From a bacterium (lineage in GTDB: Bacteria > Caldisericota > Caldisericia > UBA6126), in contig JAJFUD010000010.1 of the NCBI GenBank assembly GCA_021372585.1, positions 1-51,077 of the forward strand: DNA of 51,077 nt. The letters run 5' to 3'. Below the pieces are notes generated by a model that was not told where the DNA came from, did no database searches, and worked only from the letters and a program-made list of their open reading frames with translations. This document shows positions 17,198 through 50,944 of this stretch, piece by piece (positions within the stretch are counted from its first letter, which is position 1; each line of letters starts with the position of its first letter). Both the position numbers and the translations under genes were made by a program.

Positions 17198-18223
17198 CTA
17201 AAACTGTTCTAAGAATGACAGGTTATTCTCAAAAAAGAGTCGAATATCATCAATGCCGTATTTAATCATCGCTAAACGTTCGACGCCCCATCCGAAAGCA
17301 AATCCCTGGTATTTTGTTGGATCGATATTCACATTTCTCAGGACCTGGGGGTGAGTCATTCCTGAGCCACCAAGCTCAATCCAGCCTGAGTTCTTACAAA
17401 CAGAACAGCCGTCTCCTTTACAAAAAGGACAGCTAATTAAAGTTTCGGCACCTGGCTCCACAAATGGAAAATAAGAGGGGACAAATCGGATTTCAACCGG
17501 CTTTCCGAAAACACCCCGCATCATTTCCGAAAGAATTTCACTGAGATGGCAGAAATTGATATTTTCGTCTACCACTAATCCTTCGATTTGGTGAAAAACC
17601 GCGGAATGAGTAGCGTCAGAAGCGTCGCGTCTGTAACATCTGCCGCCTATTGTTACCATCCGGATCGGGGGCGATATCTTCTCCATGGTGCGAATCTCGA
17701 CAGGAGAGGTATGGGTTCGAAGGACACTGCCATCCGTAAGAAAAAAAGTATCGTTTAATTTTCTGGATGGATGCCACTTAGGGATATTCAATGCATCAAA
17801 ATTGTGGTACTCATCCTCGATCTCTCGATCTTCCACCACCATGAAGTTCATGCTTCGAAAAATCTGGTATAGTTCTTCGCAAATTAAGGTAAAAGGGTGC
17901 TTCTTCCCAATAGAATACGGAAAACCCGGTAAGGAGTAGTCGAATACCTGATTTTCAGGGGAAGTTTGTATTTTGGACTGGATAGATTCCCCTTTTTGAC
18001 TGATTTTTGACTCGATTTCCATCTTGAGTTTGTTGATGGATTCTCCGTAATGTTTTTTTTCAGAGTCAGAAAGCTGGCTTAGCTGAGAAAAAAGATCTCG
18101 TATAAGCCCTTTTCTACCCAGAAACTGGACTTTTATATCCTCCAGATCCTGATGAGAAGAAATGCTTTTGAGTGTCTGTTCGCACTGGGATAACACCTGG
18201 TTAATTCTCTCGTCTAAATCCAA
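17198..18223 (-). CDS. pheS: Phenylalanyl-tRNA synthetase alpha subunit
   Basis: Catalytic subunit of PheRS, 341 residues. An N-terminal coiled coil is followed by the class II core. Motif 2 lies in GGRCYRRDASDATHSAVFHQ with IEGLVVDE following; motif 3 is GFAFGWGVERLAMIKYGI. A four-cysteine insert (CPFCKGDGCSVC) near residues 265-276 looks like a small zinc knuckle. The start codon is TTG 18223, chosen because GAGG lies 6 nt before it. It follows the zinc-ribbon gene by 12 nt. Confidence 0.96.
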   Translation of the reverse strand: MDLDERINQVLSQCEQTLKSISSHQDLEDIKVQFLGRKGLIRDLFSQLSQLSDSEKKHYGESINKLKMEIESKISQKGESIQSKIQTSPENQVFDYSLPGFPYSIGKKHPFTLICEELYQIFRSMNFMVVEDREIEDEYHNFDALNIPKWHPSRKLNDTFFLTDGSVLRTHTSPVEIRTMEKISPPIRMVTIGGRCYRRDASDATHSAVFHQIEGLVVDENINFCHLSEILSEMMRGVFGKPVEIRFVPSYFPFVEPGAETLISCPFCKGDGCSVCKNSGWIELGGSGMTHPQVLRNVNIDPTKYQGFAFGWGVERLAMIKYGIDDIRLFFENNLSFLEQF

Positions 18224-18531: not shown

Positions 18532-18572
18532 CCAACTATCCCAGTCTTAATTATTCCCAAGCAAAGTGTCTG

Positions 18573-18600
18573 TAGGCAAGCAAAAAAAAATGAATACAAT
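18573..18600 (+). promoter_or_regulatory. Probable leaderless promoter of ispH-miaA
   Basis: TAGGCA (18573-18578), a 16-nt spacer and TACAAT (18595-18600), ending 7 nt before ATG 18608. No Shine-Dalgarno lies before this ATG. Confidence 0.45.
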
Positions 18601-18607
18601 AACCCTT

Positions 18608-20425
18608 ATGAAACGTATAGTCATCTGTGACAATATCGGTTATTGCAGCGGAGTCAGGAACGCTATCTGGAAATCAGTGTTGAGCCTATCTGCTGAGAAG
18701 CCAACGGTAATTTACGGAAATCTGATCCATAATGAGCGAGTTTTAAGAGAGATTTCTTATAATCACATTCAATTAATCAATGATATTGGTGCCATACCGA
18801 TGAATTCACGTGTTATCATTCCTGCGCATGGTATTACTAAGGATGACGAGATGCGGATTCTGAGGATTACCCAGGATGTTTGGGATATGACTTGTCCGGT
18901 CGTAGTCAGATTCAGGCGTCAACTTGCCGTTCTTTCCAGAGATGGTTACCAGATCGTATTATTTGGTAAGAGGCAACACCCGGAAATTGTAGGCGCTGTC
19001 AGTCATGCTGTACCCGGTCACGTTCATATCATCGAGAAAGTAGAGGACTTGGATCCTATTGACTGGAACCAGCCAAAATGGGCAGTGATGTCGCAAACGA
19101 CTGCAAACCAGGATGTGTTTGAGAATGTGATCCAAATCCTTCAAGCCAAGCATTTACCGGAATTGGCAATTTTCAGAACACTCTGTCCAACTGTGTCTGA
19201 TCGACAAAATAGCGTAGAATTGTTATCAAGGGAATCAGATGTGGTATTGGTGGTGGGTGATGCAAAAAGCTCAAATACCCTGAGTTTGTATAATAAAAGC
19301 CATCTGATTAATCAGGATACTTATCTTGTAGAGAGCAATCATCCCTATCAATTCGAACACCTTGTTCTCGGAAAGATACATAAGGCAGATCAAGTCGGAT
19401 TTTTAGCGGGTACTTCCACCCCGTTTTACTGTATCGATGAAATCCTTGAAAAGATTTCGCTTGCTTGTTCCCCGGAAAAGAAATTTCAGCCGGTTCTCGT
19501 TCTGTTTGGTCCAACGGCAGTCGGTAAGACTGATTGCGCTGAGAATCTGGCGGGTATTTTACAAACTGAGATTATCAATTGTGATTCCATGCAGATATAC
19601 AAACACATGACTATCGGCACCGCTAAGCCAACCTTTCCGCACCCAACGATTCCCTATCACATGGTGGATATTCTGGAGCCTAATCAGCGATTTTCAGTCG
19701 CAGCATTCAGGAATGCAGCAGATCCCATTATTGCGGACATTTTAAAGCGTGGCAAGATGCCTATTATTTCCGGAGGAAGCTACCTTTACCTTACTTCCTT
19801 GATTGATGGATTGTTTGAGATGCAACAAGCTGAAACCTGTATGATGATTCGCAAACAACTGGAAGCACAATGTGAGAGCCGTGGATTGGACAGTCTTTAC
19901 TCTGTCCTGCAGGAGGTTGATCCGGAAGCGTTCTCCAGAATCTCTTCTCAGGATAAAAAAAGAATTATTCGTGCCTTGGAAGTCTATTATACTACCCAAC
20001 AGCCTATTAGCTTATTACAAAAGGAAAAGACGATTCCGCTTCCTTATTTTTTCATTAAGATCGGACTTGTAAGAAACCCGGAAGATCTCTATCTTCGTAT
20101 TCATGAACGAACTGAGCAAATGGTAAAAAATGGTTTAAAGGAAGAGATTCGTTTTCTTGCCGACCAAGGTTACCGAAAAGACATTGAATTTATAAAAGCA
20201 CATGGATACAGAGAATTAATGGAAGCAAATGAAGGGGCTGTTACTTGGGAAGACGCTCTCTATACTATGGAAAAGAACACCCGACATTATGTGAAGCGAC
20301 AGTTAAGTTGGCTAAGGCAACGATCTGACTTTCATTTGATTAATCTTAACCTGGGAAATACGGAAGAAGCTGTCAAGGTCATTCTGACTTTGGTGCAGGA
20401 TTGTACAGCCTGGTTAGGATCTTGA
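18608..20425 (+). CDS. IspH-MiaA fusion: HMBPP reductase / tRNA dimethylallyltransferase
   Basis: One 605-residue frame carries two complete enzymes. Residues 1-288 are IspH (LytB), the [4Fe-4S] enzyme making IPP and DMAPP from HMBPP. Cluster ligands Cys13 (GYCSGV), Cys96 (MTCPVV) and Cys193 are present, with His41, His74, His124, Glu126 (HPEI), the SSN at 221-223 and Ser270. Residues 295-605 are MiaA, which transfers the dimethylallyl group of DMAPP to tRNA A37: P-loop GPTAVGKT (301-308), DSMQIY, GGSYLYL, KKRIIRALEVY and the C-terminal RHYVKRQLSWLRQR. The linker is only about 10 residues. ATG 18608 is chosen from the IspH N-terminus and the -10 spacing; ATG 18590 is possible. Confidence 0.93.
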   Translation: MKRIVICDNIGYCSGVRNAIWKSVLSLSAEKPTVIYGNLIHNERVLREISYNHIQLINDIGAIPMNSRVIIPAHGITKDDEMRILRITQDVWDMTCPVVVRFRRQLAVLSRDGYQIVLFGKRQHPEIVGAVSHAVPGHVHIIEKVEDLDPIDWNQPKWAVMSQTTANQDVFENVIQILQAKHLPELAIFRTLCPTVSDRQNSVELLSRESDVVLVVGDAKSSNTLSLYNKSHLINQDTYLVESNHPYQFEHLVLGKIHKADQVGFLAGTSTPFYCIDEILEKISLACSPEKKFQPVLVLFGPTAVGKTDCAENLAGILQTEIINCDSMQIYKHMTIGTAKPTFPHPTIPYHMVDILEPNQRFSVAAFRNAADPIIADILKRGKMPIISGGSYLYLTSLIDGLFEMQQAETCMMIRKQLEAQCESRGLDSLYSVLQEVDPEAFSRISSQDKKRIIRALEVYYTTQQPISLLQKEKTIPLPYFFIKIGLVRNPEDLYLRIHERTEQMVKNGLKEEIRFLADQGYRKDIEFIKAHGYRELMEANEGAVTWEDALYTMEKNTRHYVKRQLSWLRQRSDFHLINLNLGNTEEAVKVILTLVQDCTAWLGS

Positions 20426-20430
20426 AAGAA

Positions 20431-21042
20431 TCAGGGAATAAAAGTAGGATTTAACAATCTGTAGTCTGATTCTGTGTTCACATTAATGAAAGATTGCATA
20501 CCTGGGTCGTAACGTTTGATTTCTTCTGTCTGAATCTCTGCTGTATTGATCCTGTCAAACAATTTTGAAACCTGATATATTTCAGAATCAATCATCGTTT
20601 TGATCGGATGAATGCACTGTTTGGTGTAGATGCAGAATAAGGGTTCAAATCCTTTATCATTTCTTGGAACAACCGCGTCATAGCGATCGATTTTTGTGAA
20701 CATGTAACGAATGAGGGGCAAAGAAATAAATGGTTGGTCGGCAGCCAGAAAAAAAGCGTTGGAAGAGGGCATTGAATTCAGACCGGTGTAAATTCCCACC
20801 AAGGGGCCACAGGACGTAATGATGTCTGTGACTACAGAAACAGAAAAGTACCGGCTTTGGTTTACCATCTGCTGCATCCTTTGCCGGTACTCTTCATTCG
20901 TTACGATACAGATCGTCTGAAAATAATTGGTTAACCTATGTAACATATATGCCATCAGGGTTTCTTCCTGATCAAACGGTAAAAACAGTTTATTCCGTTT
21001 CATTCGCCTGCTTTTTCCGCCCGCTAACAAAACCAGATCCAT
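20431..21042 (-). CDS. mobA: Molybdenum cofactor guanylyltransferase
   Basis: Attaches GMP to molybdopterin to give the MGD form required by DMSO-reductase-family enzymes such as the FdhA in this operon. The nucleotide-binding signature LVLLAGGKSRRMKRNKLFLPF (near residues 3-23), GPLVGIYTGL and AADQPFIS are clear. 203 residues, normal length. It is the last gene of the fdh operon, 22 nt after focA, and converges on ispH-miaA with only 5 nt between stops. Confidence 0.92.
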   Translation of the reverse strand: MDLVLLAGGKSRRMKRNKLFLPFDQEETLMAYMLHRLTNYFQTICIVTNEEYRQRMQQMVNQSRYFSVSVVTDIITSCGPLVGIYTGLNSMPSSNAFFLAADQPFISLPLIRYMFTKIDRYDAVVPRNDKGFEPLFCIYTKQCIHPIKTMIDSEIYQVSKLFDRINTAEIQTEEIKRYDPGMQSFINVNTESDYRLLNPTFIP

Positions 21043-21064
21043 TATTCAGCTTCTTTTAGGAAAA

Positions 21065-21862
21065 TTAAGCAGCTTTTTTTGCCTTTCTGACATAAGCTAC
21101 CCAATACATAAAACCGACGAAGAAAGCTCCGCCAATAATATTACCGATGGTTACCGGCAGTAGGTTGTTCATGAAAAACTGACCCCAAGTGACTTCCGCA
21201 CCTAAGAAAATACCAAGCGGAATAAAATACATATTCGCAATACTATGCTCAAATCCTAACGCTACAAAGGTCATAATGGGGAAGAAAATGCCAAAGACTT
21301 TACCAATGACTTCCTTGCTGGCAGATGCAAGCCAGACAGCCATACACACTAGCCAATTACAAAGAATACCTCTGAATAAAGCGGGGCCAAAAGCAAGTCC
21401 GGCTTTTGTCTGGGCAATCTTTATGGCAGCCGTACCAATTTCAGGGGTGGCTTCCCATAATCGGGTTCCAAAATAGAGCCAAGCAACCAACAAAGCACCA
21501 ATAAAGTTAGCAATAAAGACAATAATCCAATTCCTGAATAAAGCGCTCCAAGGCACTGTTTTGTTCAAAGCAGAAAGCATAATCAGGTTATTTCCGGTAA
21601 ATAACTCAGCGCCACCGATGACAACGAGCATCAGGCCAACGCTGAAAACGCTACCGCTCAGGATCTTGCTTAAACCATATCCTAAAGTGTCAGCGGTGCC
21701 AACTCCTGCCAGGGTAGAAATCATCCCTCCGAACCCAATGAAAGCACCTGCCAGAATTCCGAGAACCAATAAATAAGTAAAGGGAGCTTTCGCTTTCTTC
21801 ACGCAAATTGTCTCAGTAAAATTCTCTGCTACTTGTGCTGGAGTGAAACAAAGTTGATCCAT
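21065..21862 (-). CDS. focA: Formate/nitrite transporter (FocA-like)
   Basis: Pentameric inner-membrane channel of the FNT family, 265 residues with six hydrophobic segments. Family motifs are GGAELFTGNN and GFEHSIANMYFIPLG, the latter holding the conserved pore histidine. Its place between fdhA and mobA argues for formate rather than nitrite. The start ATG 21862 has AGGAG about 8 nt upstream. Transport direction (uptake of substrate or release of product) cannot be told from sequence. Confidence 0.92.
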   Translation of the reverse strand: MDQLCFTPAQVAENFTETICVKKAKAPFTYLLVLGILAGAFIGFGGMISTLAGVGTADTLGYGLSKILSGSVFSVGLMLVVIGGAELFTGNNLIMLSALNKTVPWSALFRNWIIVFIANFIGALLVAWLYFGTRLWEATPEIGTAAIKIAQTKAGLAFGPALFRGILCNWLVCMAVWLASASKEVIGKVFGIFFPIMTFVALGFEHSIANMYFIPLGIFLGAEVTWGQFFMNNLLPVTIGNIIGGAFFVGFMYWVAYVRKAKKAA

Positions 21863-21891
21863 GATCTTATACTCCTTTCTAATATATCGAT

Positions 21892-24609
21892 CTATTTTTT
21901 CTGAATATGACAGGCTGCAACTTTAAATTCAGGAATCTTGGCTACCGGATCAAGCGCTGCGTTGGTTAATATATTTGCCGGTGCTTCACTGAAATGAAAT
22001 GGAATAAACACGACTCCTTTTTTCGGTCTCTCGGAGATTTTGGCATTTAGCTCCAGCTTACCTCTTCTGGTAGTCACAATCACAAGGTCGTTTGCCTGGA
22101 TACCAAGTTCTTTTGCATCCAAAGGATTAATCTCTACATAATTCTTTGGGACGAATTCATTCAGCACACTGGTTCTTCGGGTTTCGTTGCCGGAATGGAA
22201 ATGGTACAAAATTCTACCGGTAGTAAGAATGAACGGATAATCGGAATCGGGTAATTCCTGAGCAGGTTTAAAATCGATCGCATGCAATAGCCCTTTTTGG
22301 TTGGGTCGTTTGGTGACGCCTTCTTTATGAAGAATGGGTGTACCCGGATGCTCCAGGGTAGGACAAGGCCATTGTAAACCTGATTTTTCAAGTCTTTCCA
22401 TGGATATGCCCCCATAGGAAGGAGTCATTTTGTTAATTTCGCGGTTGACATCCTGGACAGAGTCAAAGCCAAGGTCATATCCCATTTTCTGGGACAGCCG
22501 TGATACAATTTTCCAATCATCCATAACGTTGGGATGATGTTTTCTGACAGGTCTAAGCAGTTGTACACGTCTCTCGGTGTTGACAAAAGTTCCGTATTTT
22601 TCATAGGCAGAGGTAGAGGGAAAAACAACATCGGCTACTGCTACGGTTTCGCACATAAAGATATTTTGAACAGCGATGAATTCAATTTTATCAAATCCTT
22701 CGCGTACAGCAGTAATGTCTGCATCAGTCATCAATGGATTTTCACCCATTATGTAGACTGCTTTTAATTCTCCGGTCAGTCCTTTTTCGCCAAACAAAGT
22801 AGCTTGTAAACCAATCTTATCTGAAAGTGTCACTTTCCATTCAGCCTCAAATTTCTCTTTTACAGCCGGATCAGTCACTGACTGATAACCGGAGTAAACG
22901 TTCGGAAGTGCACCCATATCACAAGCTCCCTGTACATTTGCCTGACCGCGCAATGCCATAATACCGGCGCCTGGTTTTCCCAGATTGCCGGTTAATAAAG
23001 AAAGATTGGCTATGGAGAGTACATTATCTACACCGGTGGAATGCTGTGTGATACCCATAGAATAGAAAGTCATCATGTTTTTAGCTTTTCCGATAATAAG
23101 GGCGGCTTCTTTGATCAGTTCAGCCTTAACGCCAGTAATTTCAGCCACTTTCTCTAAGGGGTACTCACTAATTTTTTGCTTAAAAGCATCGAAGTTTTCA
23201 ACGTGTTCTTCAATGAATTTTGTGTTTTCCAACTGCTCATCCAGAATGATCTTCATAATGCCATTTAACAAGGCAACATCTGTTCCGGGAGTATGTTGAA
23301 TATGGATCTTGGCATGTTTTGTGATATCCGTCTTTCTTGGATCACAAACGATCAGAGTACAATCGGATTTTCGTAAATGCTCCTTCATGATCTGTGCTAT
23401 CACCGGATGAGTTTCGGTCGTATTCGATCCAATATCAAAAAACACATCGGAAGCGCTGAAATCAGAATAAGAGTTCGTGGCCGCGCCTGCACCAAATGAT
23501 TTAGCTAAGCCGGCGACTGTTGATGAATGACAGAGTCGGGCGCAATTATCAATATTGTTGGTGCCAATGGTCGCTCTTGCAAATTTCATGATAGCATAAT
23601 TGTCTTCGTTGGAACAACGGGAGGATCCCAGCACACCAATGGAGTCAGATCCATATTTTTCTTTTATCTCACTTAAACGTTTCGCGGTATAATCCAGGGC
23701 TTCTTCCCAGGAGGCTGGCTCCAGCACGCCATTTTTCCGGATGAGGGGGGTGGTCAATCTGTCAGGATGCTGGGTGTACTCATGTCCGTATCTTCCTTTG
23801 ACGCAAGTTCTGCCATTATTCAATGTCGGATCACCAATAACGCCTTTTGCCATGATCAGGTTATCAGCAGAGTCCTTATAGATGGATAGGTTACAGCCAA
23901 CTCCGCAGTAAGCACAGGTAGTATCCGTTTTGGTAAAATCTTTCAATTTCCCTTTGCCGACACGGGTCTTTTCTATGAGTGCACCAACCGGGCAAGCCTG
24001 GACACAAGCAGCACAGAACTGGCAGGTGGTACTTTCCAGCGGTAAATCAAACGGAGTAGATACTTTAGAGAGGTGACCACGATTGGCAATCGCAATGGCT
24101 TCTACTTGTGCGGTGTTCATACAGGCGTTTACGCATCTTCTGCACAATACACATTTCTGTTCATCAAAGAGAATGAAGGGGTTATCTTTCCAGGCATTTT
24201 CTTTAAGAGTGGATATCTGGTCCTCTTCGGTTAAAAAACGGCTTTTTTTCACACCGTACTGATACGCTAAATCCTGCAACGTGCAATCACCGTCTTTGTC
24301 GCAAGTCATGCAGTCTAACGGATGGTGAGCCAGTGCTAATTCCAGATTCATTTTTCTGGCTTTATAAATTGCTTCCGATTCGGTAGTAATTTTCATCCCT
24401 TCAAAGATGATCGTATTGCAGGCTCTGTCAAACGTTCTGGATTTTTCCACTTTTACCACACAAATGCCGCAGGAACCTTCGTCGCTTACTCCTTGTAAAT
24501 AACAAAGCGTTGGAATGGCTATCCCAGATCTGTTACAGGCTTCCAAGATAGTGATGTTGCCAGGGAACGTGTAGTGTTTTTCATTGATGACGATATTGAC
24601 ATCGTTCAT
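21892..24609 (-). CDS. fdhA: Formate dehydrogenase catalytic subunit with NuoG-type Fe-S head (Cys form)
   Basis: Soluble Mo/W bis-MGD formate dehydrogenase, 905 residues. Cofactor sites in order: [2Fe-2S] Cys36, 47, 50, 64; His/Cys-ligated [4Fe-4S] with His96, Cys100, 103, 109; two ferredoxin-type clusters (Cys153-163, with Cys156 and 159; Cys196-206, with Cys199 and 202); and the catalytic-domain cluster Cys232, 235, 239, 269. Catalytic Cys360 followed by His361 (DNCARLCH) stands where E. coli FdhF has selenocysteine. Electrons should pass from formate through these clusters to the NuoE/NuoF partners encoded just upstream. The nuoF stop is 2 nt from its start. Confidence 0.95.
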   Translation of the reverse strand: MNDVNIVINEKHYTFPGNITILEACNRSGIAIPTLCYLQGVSDEGSCGICVVKVEKSRTFDRACNTIIFEGMKITTESEAIYKARKMNLELALAHHPLDCMTCDKDGDCTLQDLAYQYGVKKSRFLTEEDQISTLKENAWKDNPFILFDEQKCVLCRRCVNACMNTAQVEAIAIANRGHLSKVSTPFDLPLESTTCQFCAACVQACPVGALIEKTRVGKGKLKDFTKTDTTCAYCGVGCNLSIYKDSADNLIMAKGVIGDPTLNNGRTCVKGRYGHEYTQHPDRLTTPLIRKNGVLEPASWEEALDYTAKRLSEIKEKYGSDSIGVLGSSRCSNEDNYAIMKFARATIGTNNIDNCARLCHSSTVAGLAKSFGAGAATNSYSDFSASDVFFDIGSNTTETHPVIAQIMKEHLRKSDCTLIVCDPRKTDITKHAKIHIQHTPGTDVALLNGIMKIILDEQLENTKFIEEHVENFDAFKQKISEYPLEKVAEITGVKAELIKEAALIIGKAKNMMTFYSMGITQHSTGVDNVLSIANLSLLTGNLGKPGAGIMALRGQANVQGACDMGALPNVYSGYQSVTDPAVKEKFEAEWKVTLSDKIGLQATLFGEKGLTGELKAVYIMGENPLMTDADITAVREGFDKIEFIAVQNIFMCETVAVADVVFPSTSAYEKYGTFVNTERRVQLLRPVRKHHPNVMDDWKIVSRLSQKMGYDLGFDSVQDVNREINKMTPSYGGISMERLEKSGLQWPCPTLEHPGTPILHKEGVTKRPNQKGLLHAIDFKPAQELPDSDYPFILTTGRILYHFHSGNETRRTSVLNEFVPKNYVEINPLDAKELGIQANDLVIVTTRRGKLELNAKISERPKKGVVFIPFHFSEAPANILTNAALDPVAKIPEFKVAACHIQKK

Positions 24610-24610
24610 A

Positions 24611-26272
24611 TTAATGCATTCCCTTCAAATTAGATTCTGATACAACGGTGCTTGTTTCAATCGGACAAACATGAACCGGACATTTCTTTTCCTGTATATG
24701 GATTAAAATCTCCTCACGGAATTTCTTGAGTGCTTGGATTAAAATGTTCGGAGCCGCTTGTCCGAGTGGACAAAAGGAAGTGCTGTTCATTGTTTTGGCT
24801 AAATCTTCCAATGTGGTAAGGTCTTCCAATTCTCCTTCCCCGTAAGAAATTCGATCCAGGATTTTTACAATCTGATCATTCCCGACACGGCATGGAGTAC
24901 ACTTCCCACAACTTTCATGTCGGAAAAACTGGGCGATATTAAGGAGAATATCTACAATACATCTTGTTTCATCCATGGCTACAATCGATCCGGATCCTGG
25001 TCCGGCTTCAATTCTGGCTAAGGATTGAAAGTCTACGGCTGTATTCAACTCCGGAGGCAAAATCAAAAATCCGGAAGAGCCGCCCAAAATAATGCCTTTT
25101 AATTTTTTATCACCTTTAATCCCTTGCCCGATATTATTCACAATATCACCGATTGTCGTGCCAAATGGGATTTCAACCACACCTTTCCAGTTGAGGTCAC
25201 CCATTAAACTAAAGAGTTTGGTTCCTCTGGAGCCTTCCACTCCAATTCCTTTGAACCAGTTGCCACCCTTAGCAATGATCAATGGAATGTTAGCTAAGGT
25301 TTCCACATTGTTGACAACTGTAGGTTTCATCCACAAACCAGCGGTAGGGGGGTAGGGAGGTTTTTTCCTGGGTTCTCCTCTTTTTCCTTCGATGGATTCT
25401 ATTAGGGCAGTTTCTTCACCGCACACATAAGCGCCAGCCCCTTTGTGGACAAAAATATCAAAGGAAAAGGAGGTGCCGAGAATGTTGTTTCCTAATAAAC
25501 CATACTGCCTGGCATCCAGAATAGCTTTTTCCAGTCTGCGAATGGAGAGATCGTACTCTCCCCTTATGTAGATATAACCAATTTTTCCACCGGTAGCGTA
25601 ACCGGCAATCATCATTCCCTCAAGCAATTTATGCGGATCCCCTTCCATGATCTCCCTGTCTTTAAATGTTCCCGGCTCCCCTTCATCGGCGTTACAAATC
25701 ACGTATTTCATCTCGTTGATAGATTTTGCAGTGAAATCCCATTTCATTCCAGTGGGAAATCCGGCACCACCGCGTCCTCTTAATTCAGAGGTTTTTACTT
25801 CCTGGATGATTTCCTCCGGTTTTAAGGAGAATAAAGCTTTCTCTAAAGCTACGTAACCATCTTGAGCGATGTATTCATCTATATTTTCCGGATTAATGAT
25901 ACCTACATTTTGTAAAACAAACCGTTCTTGAATATCCTTAATGTACTGTGTTTCGTATGTTCCCCTGGAAACATCCTGGTTTTTAAATGGGGCTAACCAT
26001 TTTGAGACCACTCTTCCTTTTAATAGATGTTCTTCGACTAGAAAAGGAATATTGTCTAATGTGAGGGGACAATATACGATTCCTTCAGGATAAACCGCAA
26101 TGGCGACTCCTTGGTCTTCATAGCCTAGACTTCCTGTGGGGATAACTCGGATTTCATCCTGTAAACCAAAGCGTTGGATCGATTCAATTAAAGCTTCTTC
26201 TATTCTCTTGGCTCCGATTAATAAACTCTTTGTGTCTTCAGCTACTAGTACATGACTTCGATAGAATTTCAT
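24611..26272 (-). CDS. NuoF-type diaphorase subunit 2 (FMN/NADH), ferredoxin domain without cysteines
   Basis: Flavin subunit that would exchange electrons between NAD(H) and the formate dehydrogenase; 553 residues. NADH/FMN motifs are GRGGAGFPTGMKW and NADEGEPGTFKDR; the C-terminal [4Fe-4S] site is CGKCTPC plus FCPLG. The GEPGTFKDR form resembles complex I and NAD-linked formate dehydrogenases more than HydB. The N-terminal thioredoxin-like domain (1-80) has lost all four [2Fe-2S] ligands: compared with the paralogue in this operon, Cys11, 16, 48, 52 are Ala, Ser, Ser, Glu. It overlaps nuoE2 by 4 nt and lies 1 nt from fdhA. Confidence 0.92.
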   Translation of the reverse strand: MKFYRSHVLVAEDTKSLLIGAKRIEEALIESIQRFGLQDEIRVIPTGSLGYEDQGVAIAVYPEGIVYCPLTLDNIPFLVEEHLLKGRVVSKWLAPFKNQDVSRGTYETQYIKDIQERFVLQNVGIINPENIDEYIAQDGYVALEKALFSLKPEEIIQEVKTSELRGRGGAGFPTGMKWDFTAKSINEMKYVICNADEGEPGTFKDREIMEGDPHKLLEGMMIAGYATGGKIGYIYIRGEYDLSIRRLEKAILDARQYGLLGNNILGTSFSFDIFVHKGAGAYVCGEETALIESIEGKRGEPRKKPPYPPTAGLWMKPTVVNNVETLANIPLIIAKGGNWFKGIGVEGSRGTKLFSLMGDLNWKGVVEIPFGTTIGDIVNNIGQGIKGDKKLKGIILGGSSGFLILPPELNTAVDFQSLARIEAGPGSGSIVAMDETRCIVDILLNIAQFFRHESCGKCTPCRVGNDQIVKILDRISYGEGELEDLTTLEDLAKTMNSTSFCPLGQAAPNILIQALKKFREEILIHIQEKKCPVHVCPIETSTVVSESNLKGMH

Positions 26273-46305: not shown

Positions 46306-46758
46306 ATGGAAACTGCTGAAAATGGCGTTATATTAATCGGGGAAAACAAAAAAGCTTACCATTATTACTCTATTGTCGATACTTTTGAAGCGGGAATAGC
46401 ATTAGAAGGCGCTGAAGTAAAAGCGTTACGCCAGGGAAAATTCCATTTTTCCGATAGCTATGTCGATCATCAAAATCAAGAACTTTTTTTAACAGGTTTC
46501 CATATCGAAGCAGTGCCGGTATTTGGTAAATTTAATCCTGAACGCAAGAGAAAATTGCTGTTACATCGTTATGAAATCTCCAGAATTATTGCAAGGTCAA
46601 CAGAAAAAGGGTTAACGATTATACCGTTAAAAATCTATTTTAAAAAACAACATATTAAACTTTTGATTGCGTTGGTGAAAGGTATAAATAGATATGATAA
46701 AAGACAAAAAATCAAGGAAAAGGATTCCAGGAAAGAGATTAGACATGAAATGGAATAA
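46306..46758 (+). CDS. smpB: SsrA-binding protein
   Basis: Binds tmRNA and brings it to stalled ribosomes; 150 residues, a small beta-barrel protein. Family features: YHYYSIVDTFEAGIALEGAE with VKALRQGK, DSYVDHQNQELFLTGFHI, and LVKGINRYDKRQKIKEKD. The basic C-terminal tail, which enters the mRNA channel, is present. No ssrA gene was recognised next to it. The start codon coincides with the predicted transcription start. Confidence 0.94.
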   Translation: METAENGVILIGENKKAYHYYSIVDTFEAGIALEGAEVKALRQGKFHFSDSYVDHQNQELFLTGFHIEAVPVFGKFNPERKRKLLLHRYEISRIIARSTEKGLTIIPLKIYFKKQHIKLLIALVKGINRYDKRQKIKEKDSRKEIRHEME

Positions 46759-46771
46759 GGTGGGCATCAAG

Positions 46772-49765
46772 ATGATAAAACTAAATCAACTGCTTCCATG
46801 GGTGTTAGGTTTATGTTTATTGGCTTCCGGAATTCCTACGATCCCTGTGCAGGGAGAAACTTTTCGATATGCGGTAGTTTCGCCGACAGTGAACGTCCGG
46901 AATGCCATTTCTCAAACGGCTGACATTGTGTATGTGATAAAAGAAGCCGGGAAATACCTGATTATGAGTGAGAGCAAAGATAATGAAGACAGGTTATGGT
47001 ATAAAATAAAAATCAACGAGACTATCCAGGGTTTTATTGCTTCCTGGGTGGTAGATTCTGTGATAAAGCAAGAATCAGAAACTCCGGTCAGTGGAAAAAA
47101 AGCGGTTTTGGAGCCTGGCGTGAAAATACGTCTTCAGCCATCTCTGGACGCTGAGATAGATCAAATTATCAATGCGACAGTAGAGAAAGTAATCCTGGCA
47201 GAAATCAAGGACAATGAAAACCGATCTTGGTATAGGATTCAATTGAACAGTGGAAAAATGGGATGGGTCGCTTCCTGGGTTGTCATTGTTAAATCCATTA
47301 ACACTGAGAAAAAATCAGCGACCGATAAACTGATCATTCTGGAAAATGTGAACATCCGAAAAGGACCCGGACAGGAGTATGACGTTGTAACCTACGTTTC
47401 AAGTCATATTGAAGCCAGGGGCATCGTGGAAGAAAATGACAAAAACGGGAAAGTTTGGTACCTGATTAAACTCCCCAATAATGTTGAGGGCTGGGCAGCA
47501 TCATGGGTGGTGGGAGTGAAGGCTTACTCAGAAAAAAAGGAAACCGTATCCGGTAAAAAAGTCAAGATAGAGCCTGTGGTAAATGTTCGTAAAGGACCCT
47601 CCACTACTACAGATATTGTAAAAACAGTGACCGTGGTCGCTGAGTATCCAATTTTATCCCAGGGTACCGACATCAATGGAAAAGCCTGGTATGAGATCCA
47701 ACTGGATCCCACCCTAACAGGCTGGGTAGCCTCATGGGTAGTTAAGGTAATGTCCATTACCATAAACAATGAAGTCAAGGATTCTGCTAACCTTAGAAAC
47801 GGCCCCGGCACTAATTTTGAAAAAATAGCTGATTTAAAGGCGGGAAGAACCTTTCAATTATCAGGCTCCGCTTTTAACGCTAACAAAGATACTTGGTATG
47901 CTATCCAGATTGATGGCAAGAACGGATGGATCTTTGGGCAGTTAGTTACGGTGGTCAATCCGAAAGAACTTGATATTTCAAAAATCGGTACAAAAATTAC
48001 CTTGAACGCTATAGATACAGTGGCTTATTCCGGTCCTTCCGTCCGATTTTCCAAAGTAGAAATCCCAAAAAAGGAGATTCAATATACGATTGTCGGAGTA
48101 GCAGTTAACCACGAAGGAGAAGCTTGGTTTCAAATTAACCAGGATAATGCAACGGATTTCTGGATTTTACAACAAAACCAGATGAATATTCCGGCCAAGC
48201 CTGCCCAGAAAATTACTTCACTCAGCTGGAGCAAGAAACAGCAAGGCATAGAGATTGCTTTAGCATTTGAAGAGGTCGGAGAGTTAGAATATGACTCATT
48301 TCATCTGACCAATCCCACACAGATGGTCATCGATATAAAAAATGCTGTTCTCTTTAAAAAAGAACATTTTGAGCTCATCAATCATGCGGGTGTTGTGAGT
48401 ATGAGAGTGACACAGTATTCCGTGAATCCACATATTGTTAGAATTGTATTAGAAACCTCAAAAGAATTTCAACTTATCCAGCGGGCTGAACAAAAAACTT
48501 CTTTCTTTGAGTTGACTGATTTTGCTTCTTATCAAGGCCCAAAACTAGTTGTAAACGGTCAGGAGATTGAAAACCATCTTTCTTTGAAAGAAAGCAAAGG
48601 GATCCTTTATATCCCATTGTATGTTTTCTCTAATATGGTTAATGGATTGCTATCATGGGATAAAGATAAAAATGAAGCGGTCTTGAAGTTGGGACAAAAA
48701 GAATTTCGGTTTATGCAGGATGCTAAATATGTATTGGTTTCCAGCTTAACAGGACAGGAGAAGGTTACCATTACCCATCCAGTCTCAGTGATGGGAGAGG
48801 TGATGTATATTCCCTACAACGGTTTGGAGCCGGTGTTCAAAGTGAAAACGTATTCGATTGGCAATTGGTATTATGTAGATAACCAGCTGTTAGAAATTGT
48901 CACTTCGGATGAAAAAACTAATCCTGTCATGAAATGCACTTTCTCCCTACCGGTCAATGTACAAAAAAAAGCCGGAGAAGGCATTATGCTGTTTTCATTC
49001 AAAAACACCGCGCTTGATCCTGCTTTTAAAGCGCCTTCCATGGACTTTATTGACAAAATACTATCCCTTAAGAGAACCAGCACTACGGTTTCCAGTGTGG
49101 AAATCAGCTTGTATATGAGCGCCTTTCCCACTTTGGATACAGCGAACCTTGAGGAGGAATTTACCTACGTGATCTCGATGAAAAAGTTAAAAAGCAAAGG
49201 GCTAGCCGGGAAAAAGATCATCTTGGATGCCGGTCATGGTGCATTTTCCGAAGAAAACTATTATGATACCGGCGCGATTGGGCCTACCGGGTTACTGGAA
49301 AGCGTCGTGAATTTGAAAGTAGTGCTCTCTTTAAAAACCAAGCTGGAGAAAGCCGGTGCAGTGGTCATTTTAACGCGTGACCAGGAACAAAATAAGGAAG
49401 CTTTGACCTTAGAACAACGAATCACCATGGCGAATAAGAGCGGAGCTGACCTGTATATCAGCATTCACCAAAATGCATCGATTAACCAGGAAGCGAAGGG
49501 TTCAGAGGTTTATTACTATAGTGAAGATGCCCTGGACTTTGCCGAAAAGATGCTGAAATCGCTGATATCCTTTACAGGATTAACTTCCCGGGGTTCGAAA
49601 AAACGAGGTTTTGCTGTCACCAAAGAGATAACCACGATGCCGTCCATTTTGATTGAATGTGCATTTATCTCCAATCCTGAAGAGGAAAGAATGATGCAGA
49701 GTGATAAATTTACTGAACTCATAACGGATGGTCTGTTAAAAGGTCTGCAAGTTTATTTCGAATAA
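46772..49765 (+). CDS. Secreted N-acetylmuramoyl-L-alanine amidase with SH3 repeats
   Basis: Zinc amidase that cuts the stem peptide from murein; 998 residues. A signal peptide (1-28) is followed by five bacterial SH3 repeats (about 31-95, 108-172, 185-248, 260-325, 331-395), four of them ending in (A/V)ASWVV-like strands, and a degenerate sixth (405-468). Then come an AMIN domain (about 481-580), a copper-amine-oxidase-N-like domain (about 590-715) and Amidase_3 (about 812-998). The last has the ligands of DAGHG, the Glu of LLES, the His of SIHQNAS, and catalytic Glu in LIECAFISNPEE. ATG 46772 follows AAGGTGG. smpB ends 13 nt upstream. Confidence 0.93.
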   Translation: MIKLNQLLPWVLGLCLLASGIPTIPVQGETFRYAVVSPTVNVRNAISQTADIVYVIKEAGKYLIMSESKDNEDRLWYKIKINETIQGFIASWVVDSVIKQESETPVSGKKAVLEPGVKIRLQPSLDAEIDQIINATVEKVILAEIKDNENRSWYRIQLNSGKMGWVASWVVIVKSINTEKKSATDKLIILENVNIRKGPGQEYDVVTYVSSHIEARGIVEENDKNGKVWYLIKLPNNVEGWAASWVVGVKAYSEKKETVSGKKVKIEPVVNVRKGPSTTTDIVKTVTVVAEYPILSQGTDINGKAWYEIQLDPTLTGWVASWVVKVMSITINNEVKDSANLRNGPGTNFEKIADLKAGRTFQLSGSAFNANKDTWYAIQIDGKNGWIFGQLVTVVNPKELDISKIGTKITLNAIDTVAYSGPSVRFSKVEIPKKEIQYTIVGVAVNHEGEAWFQINQDNATDFWILQQNQMNIPAKPAQKITSLSWSKKQQGIEIALAFEEVGELEYDSFHLTNPTQMVIDIKNAVLFKKEHFELINHAGVVSMRVTQYSVNPHIVRIVLETSKEFQLIQRAEQKTSFFELTDFASYQGPKLVVNGQEIENHLSLKESKGILYIPLYVFSNMVNGLLSWDKDKNEAVLKLGQKEFRFMQDAKYVLVSSLTGQEKVTITHPVSVMGEVMYIPYNGLEPVFKVKTYSIGNWYYVDNQLLEIVTSDEKTNPVMKCTFSLPVNVQKKAGEGIMLFSFKNTALDPAFKAPSMDFIDKILSLKRTSTTVSSVEISLYMSAFPTLDTANLEEEFTYVISMKKLKSKGLAGKKIILDAGHGAFSEENYYDTGAIGPTGLLESVVNLKVVLSLKTKLEKAGAVVILTRDQEQNKEALTLEQRITMANKSGADLYISIHQNASINQEAKGSEVYYYSEDALDFAEKMLKSLISFTGLTSRGSKKRGFAVTKEITTMPSILIECAFISNPEEERMMQSDKFTELITDGLLKGLQVYFE

Positions 49766-49833: not shown

Positions 49834-49907
<74 letters not shown>

Positions 49908-49912
49908 CTTTT

Positions 49913-49940
49913 TTGATGGGAAGAGGGTTTCTGGTAATAT
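49913..49940 (+). promoter_or_regulatory. Possible promoter of the recombinase gene
   Basis: TTGATG (49913-49918), 16 nt, TAATAT (49935-49940), directly after the tRNA and about 60 nt before the recombinase start. Confidence 0.35.
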
Positions 49941-50002
49941 AACCAATCAAACAATCATCACTAAATCCTATGAGACCGTTGCTGTTGAAAAGGGGGATTT
50001 TA

Positions 50003-50944
50003 GTGCCGAAAACGATGATTTTACGTAGAGAGAAATATACATGGGAAACTCTTCTGGATGATTTTTTATTAGTAAAGAAGGTTGATGGTTGTAGAGACAG
50101 GACATTACAAGATTACCGTTACCACATAAGGTTATTTTTCAAAGAATATCCAAATGCTTTGTTTGATAACACTTCATTAGTCTATGCCATTCGTTCTTAT
50201 TTTTCAAAACATTGTGCTCCTGCAACGTTTAATATTAGGCGTGAGAATTTGAAAGCCTATTTCTCATTTTTATTAGATGAAGGCATTATTGATAAAAACC
50301 CGATAACTTTTCAGAAAAGAAAAGATGAGGGGAAAGCCTATCAAATACCTGAAGAGACAATTAAGCTGTTGTTAACTCTCCCTGACAAAAGAACCTTTGC
50401 CGGCTTGAGAGACTTTTGCTTATTGCTGCTTACTTTAGATACAGGTATTAGACCAAAAGAAGCTTTAAGTATCTTGGCTAAGGATATCAACCTTGGGAGC
50501 TTTGAATTAAACATAAGGGGTATCGTCTCCAAAACCAATTCATCGAGAACATTACCTCTATCACCTTATACGTGTACGTTTTTAATGAAGTTTCTCAATA
50601 CCAGGCCTTCTTTTTGGGAATTTAATGTACCTGTTTTTTGCTCATACAATGGAAAACCCATGCTTGAATCAAGCTGGGGTCATAGACTGAAGAAATATAG
50701 CAAGCGACTTGGCTTTGCAGTGGCTCCCTATTCTCTTCGACATTGTTTTGCTCTCTATTATCTCAGGAATGCGGGAAATATCTTCACCCTTCAGCGTACG
50801 ATGGGACATACCGACCTAAACATGACGAAACGATATTTAGCATTAACCCAAGCAGATATGAAAGAGCAACACCTAACAACAGCCTCCCCGGTGAATATGT
50901 TTGTTAAGAAGAGGGTGAAAATTATATCGCCAAAGGAAATTTAA
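50003..50944 (+). CDS. Tyrosine recombinase/integrase
   Basis: Site-specific DNA recombinase, 313 residues. An N-terminal SAM-like core-binding domain (about 12-100) is followed by a catalytic domain with the first Arg in LDTGIRPKEAL, a Lys in the following hairpin, YSLRHCFA (Tyr replaces the first His of HxxR), MGHTDLNMTKRY with the His and the nucleophilic Tyr. GTG 50003 is chosen because AAAGGGGG lies 7 nt upstream. It sits 95 nt downstream of tRNA-Arg in the same orientation, the typical place of an integrase that targets the tRNA 3' end. A chromosomal Xer-like role is the alternative. Confidence 0.88.
   Translation: MPKTMILRREKYTWETLLDDFLLVKKVDGCRDRTLQDYRYHIRLFFKEYPNALFDNTSLVYAIRSYFSKHCAPATFNIRRENLKAYFSFLLDEGIIDKNPITFQKRKDEGKAYQIPEETIKLLLTLPDKRTFAGLRDFCLLLLTLDTGIRPKEALSILAKDINLGSFELNIRGIVSKTNSSRTLPLSPYTCTFLMKFLNTRPSFWEFNVPVFCSYNGKPMLESSWGHRLKKYSKRLGFAVAPYSLRHCFALYYLRNAGNIFTLQRTMGHTDLNMTKRYLALTQADMKEQHLTTASPVNMFVKKRVKIISPKEI

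Follow-up and report, generated by a model that had tools for sequence, protein, structure and literature searches.

The IspH-MiaA frame and its surroundings

The window, the whole 51,077-nucleotide stretch of DNA analysed here, carries a composite gene at 18608–20425 on the forward strand. This gene is one unbroken frame of 605 codons plus stop, encoding IspH and MiaA in a single 605-residue polypeptide, and it is kept at full length in three other genomes. The original prediction of an uninterrupted IspH-MiaA frame is thus borne out, with Pfam and NCBIfam matches for both domains. Translation would begin at the ATG at 18608 (MKRIVIC...), and the stop codon ends at 20425. Two alternative in-frame starts lie upstream, a GTG at 18566 and an ATG at 18590; alignment with relatives favours 18608.

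The nearest genes are a pheS-like gene (17198–18223), named from its own sequence, and mobA (20431–21042). Both lie on the reverse strand, so the fusion gene stands alone in the window. Scans for promoters and terminators gave signals near chance level. Downstream of the fusion, the reverse strand from 20431 to 26272 holds mobA followed by focA-like, formate-dehydrogenase-like and nuoF-like genes, and focA and nuoF-like genes also adjoin the fusion in a related genome (G002). Farther along, 46694–49765 encodes a protein of 1023 residues, the C-terminal 180 of which are similar to the amidase CwlD. A tRNA-Arg(acg) then opens the interval 49834–50944, followed after about 60 bases by a XerC/D-like tyrosine recombinase gene (49970–50944) near the contig end; this pair is a possible mobile-element integration site.

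The IspH (LytB) domain covers residues 4–283 (18617–19456, forward strand, as for all features of the fusion below). It matches PF02401 (E 2.4e-61) and scores 202.5 bits against the NCBIfam IspH equivalog model TIGR00216, above the curated cut-off of 187.85. Three cysteines expected to hold the Fe-S cluster, Cys13 (18644–18646), Cys96 (18893–18895) and Cys193 (19184–19186), align with those of Aquifex aeolicus IspH (3dnf). The pocket residues H41, H74, H124, E126, T164/165 (TT), S221, S222, N223 and S270 are all present, with roles that we take to be those of the corresponding residues in E. coli IspH. The presence of these residues and of the three cysteines agrees with what had been read from this sequence alone, and all of them are invariant across the four fusions.

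The MiaA (tRNA dimethylallyltransferase) domain follows at residues 295–605 (19490–20422), supported by Pfam, NCBIfam and a structure model. The PF01715 (IPPT/MiaA) match spans residues 329–571 (E 2.6e-74), and the TIGR00174 equivalog score of 283 bits is well over the curated cut-off of 148.65. Its P-loop, GPTAVGKT, occupies residues 301–308 (19508–19531) and reads GPTA[VI]GK[TS] in all four fusions. Alongside the full MiaA fold, the DSMQ, GGxxLY, GYRE and KRQ (KRQLSWLRQR) motifs are also present, so that the predicted P-loop and tRNA-handling motifs are intact. The P-loop, DSMQ, GYRE and KRQLSWLRQR motifs are invariant among the four fusions save for a few conservative changes within them. 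GGS stands at the position of E. coli GGT, and separate MiaA proteins of sister families have Ser there too. As judged from sequence, both fused domains are complete.

The two domains are joined by a short linker at approximately residues 285–294 (19460–19489), which aligns without gaps between the four fusions. In the structure model, helix 273–287 is the last of IspH and strand 295–300 the first of MiaA. These limits put the modelled linker at about 7 residues. The predicted length of about 10 residues falls within our overall estimate of 7–10, the lower value coming from the better of two structure models. Across the junction (residues 280–300) protein identity among the fusions drops to 24–38%, and the frame is never lost.

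The better AlphaFold2 model was built from a 40-row alignment, with four fused rows and the rest single-domain. IspH-only rows were trimmed before the final alignment, as wider untrimmed alignments misplaced part of IspH against MiaA. This model reached a mean pLDDT of 93.6 and a pTM of 0.89; an earlier one built from the four fused rows alone gave 72.8 and 0.47. The modelled MiaA part superposes on E. coli MiaA in its complex with tRNA(Phe) (2zm5/3foz) with a TM-score of 0.92–0.93, and the IspH part on E. coli IspH:HMBPP with 0.82–0.83. For two domains of equal size, a pTM of 0.89 suggests that their packing is defined rather than floppy, though the value comes from an alignment with only four fused rows.

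Copy number, distribution and origin

The host genome spans 1.88 Mb in 104 contigs and presumably comes from a metagenome; its completeness is 97.7% and its contamination 0.03%. Searches of it gave no second ispH or miaA: its lone PF02401 match and its lone PF01715 match both lie in the fusion gene, and the check for separate copies that the original prediction called for leaves the fusion as the sole source of each. Among related pathway genes, ispG is over cut-off in all four fusion-carrying genomes and miaB in all five genomes of the family. Neither type 1 nor type 2 IPP isomerase scored over cut-off in the family genomes, which makes IspH probably the sole source of DMAPP. Type 2 isomerase went undetected across the class, including sister lineages with separate ispH and miaA, so its absence alone cannot account for the fusion.

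The same full-length architecture occurs in three further genomes (G002, G003 and G004) of this family of uncultured bacteria, in proteins that are 45–48% identical from end to end. Every further genome of the family with this locus is among these three, and the fusion spans three genera. In a congeneric genome that is 75% complete, neither an IspH nor a MiaA domain was found. A genome of a sister family in the same order has only the last 58 MiaA residues, in a frame cut off where the contig stops, and a separate ispH was not found there; this fragment is compatible with a fusion. Outside these, no fused match appeared in the other families of the class (43 genomes) or in the phylum's remaining five genomes, and where both genes were found in these sets they sit at separate places. 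Searches of two further phyla (39 and 291 genomes; E ≤ 1e-95), which offered no positive control, returned no fusion. A contig scan with patterns from close relatives matched only a separate MiaA, in Natronincola.

Gene context differs among the carriers. A flavin-reductase-like frame precedes the fusion in G003 and G004 and overlaps it slightly, whereas the G002 fusion faces focA and a nuoF-like gene, like that of the window (neighbour names in these three genomes were read from sequence). The junction has therefore been retained in two gene neighbourhoods. When family members are compared, identity at third codon positions is 26–44%, which is saturation, and at first and second positions 52–84% in both domains. 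On this codon evidence both domains are under strong purifying selection.

Phylogeny places the MiaA half more firmly than the IspH half. A maximum-likelihood tree gathers the fused MiaA domains into a single clade, which is joined to the stand-alone MiaA of f6, a further family within the class (support 97–100). This grouping indicates that the fused MiaA probably descends vertically from the class's own MiaA. The fused IspH domains also form one clade (support 100), and with support of 17–35 at the deepest nodes of that tree their origin is left unplaced. Since the other families keep the genes separate and the MiaA comes from the class itself, this family or its order is where the two genes were probably fused. 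In three sister genomes (G013, G009 and G020) ispH and miaA lie about 20–43 kb apart on one contig, a spacing from which a local rearrangement could possibly have joined them.

Proposed function and its alternatives

A fusion of this kind is of interest because its two partners catalyse successive chemical steps. With its [4Fe-4S] cluster, the IspH domain would reduce HMBPP to IPP and the five-carbon unit DMAPP. The MiaA domain would then transfer the dimethylallyl group from DMAPP to tRNA position A37, giving i6A, which the MiaB encoded in the genome could convert to ms2i6A. The short linker would keep the two active sites together and locate MiaA where DMAPP is made, while most of the IPP and DMAPP would diffuse away to supply all other isoprenoid synthesis. 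It is very likely that both domains are enzymatically active, given their homology, intact residues, status as sole copies and the selection acting on them. We consider the best explanation to be a bifunctional HMBPP reductase and tRNA dimethylallyltransferase in which tethering favours MiaA, and this reading is probable.

That tethering functionally favours the supply of DMAPP to MiaA is a tentative proposal, quite possible while short of probable, and the poor conservation of the linker counts against it. A further step, in which DMAPP passes preferentially from IspH to the tethered MiaA and so couples i6A37 directly to MEP-pathway flux and Fe-S status, is rather unlikely. If it were true, this lineage would have a two-step enzyme that ties i6A37 in tRNA to MEP flux. 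The sole IspH must feed all isoprenoid synthesis, which makes a sealed channel unlikely and exclusive delivery of DMAPP to MiaA implausible.

The alternative that survives best is a passive fusion. Here the domains would work independently, with only co-expression and a 1:1 stoichiometry fixed by the joining, and the arrangement would be kept by drift or because it is hard to reverse. A weakly conserved linker is what such a fusion would be expected to show, as is an enzyme that has to serve the whole cell, and the 20–43 kb spacing in sister genomes means that chance could have brought the genes together. However, the architecture has persisted in three genera at 45–48% identity with silent sites saturated, and the confident two-domain model points away from independent domains. 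We regard a passive origin and upkeep as a credible explanation, if a somewhat doubtful one.

Improbable by comparison is regulatory coupling, in which the Fe-S state of IspH or its occupancy by HMBPP alters MiaA activity and so links i6A37 to redox state, iron or MEP flux. MiaB, like IspH, is an Fe-S enzyme, and a role as an Fe/O2 sensor has been proposed for IspH-S1 fusions (PMC4746011), but no feature pointing to allostery was found in the fusion sequence. Control of i6A37 by redox or Fe-S state is speculation.

It is very improbable that one domain is a degenerate passenger whose activity is supplied from elsewhere, as the catalytic residues are invariant, both domains are under purifying selection and there are no other copies; GGS in place of GGT lends this idea no support, since sister families have the same Ser in their separate MiaA. 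That adjacent genes were joined by an assembly or frameshift error, conceivable for a genome in 104 contigs, was rejected as having a negligible chance, because the junction recurs in three other genomes that were assembled independently and in which the neighbouring genes differ.

Comparison with known IspH fusions

Set beside its stand-alone relatives, the bifunctional enzyme proposed here shares the whole domain, cysteines and pocket with IspH proteins of the TIGR00216 type and adds a C-terminal MiaA. Likewise, it shares the whole domain, P-loop and motifs with MiaA proteins of the TIGR00174 type and adds an N-terminal IspH, the fused MiaA being closest to that of a sister family.

IspH fusions are already known as a class. 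The original prediction named only a fusion to ribosomal protein S1; that fusion is indeed described and no earlier MiaA fusion came to light, but a published IspH-UbiA fusion had been missed (PMC4746011). We found no IspH/LytB-MiaA fusion in the open-access papers searched. MiaA is absent from the paper describing the other two fusions (PMC4746011) and from two recent overviews of the MEP pathway in bacteria, which mention IspDF (PMC10663253, PMC13001223); other databases may possibly carry an annotation of it that has gone unreported. Among curated NCBIfam models, the fusion protein returned a bifunctional IspH/S1 model and no IspH/MiaA model. MiaA as a partner is thus new to the literature and curated families that we searched.

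The IspH-RPS1 fusion is represented by more than 400 sequences, and IspH activity has been shown in one (PMC4746011; NCBIfam NF000907). It resembles IspH-MiaA in having IspH at the N-terminus and an RNA-related partner at the C-terminus. In contrast, its S1-repeat partner is not an enzyme and makes no use of the IspH product. Our protein falls outside this family: only its IspH part matches NF000907, at 210.9 bits against a cut-off of 624, and it has no S1 domain.

A further parallel is IspH-UbiA, reported in 47 sequences mainly from sulfate-reducing bacteria, for which expression of the full-length protein failed (PMC4746011). A probable example turned up in a genome of another phylum (G056; L053:245–1981, reverse strand), where a 579-residue frame encodes IspH followed by about 300 hydrophobic, UbiA-like residues without a Pfam match. 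Both IspH-UbiA and IspH-MiaA place an N-terminal IspH before a C-terminal prenyltransferase, pairing a maker of prenyl diphosphate with a consumer of prenyl groups, and the case for each is built on sequence. They differ in the consumer. The C-terminal part of our fusion is IPPT/MiaA, not UbiA; UbiA is embedded in the membrane, whereas MiaA is soluble and has DMAPP as its own substrate and tRNA as its target. IspH-MiaA is a 'Rosetta stone' fusion between partners of plainly linked chemistry, the product of one being a substrate for the other. It offers a soluble, assayable counterpart to IspH-UbiA and a single protein in which the coupling of isoprenoid supply to tRNA modification can be tested directly.
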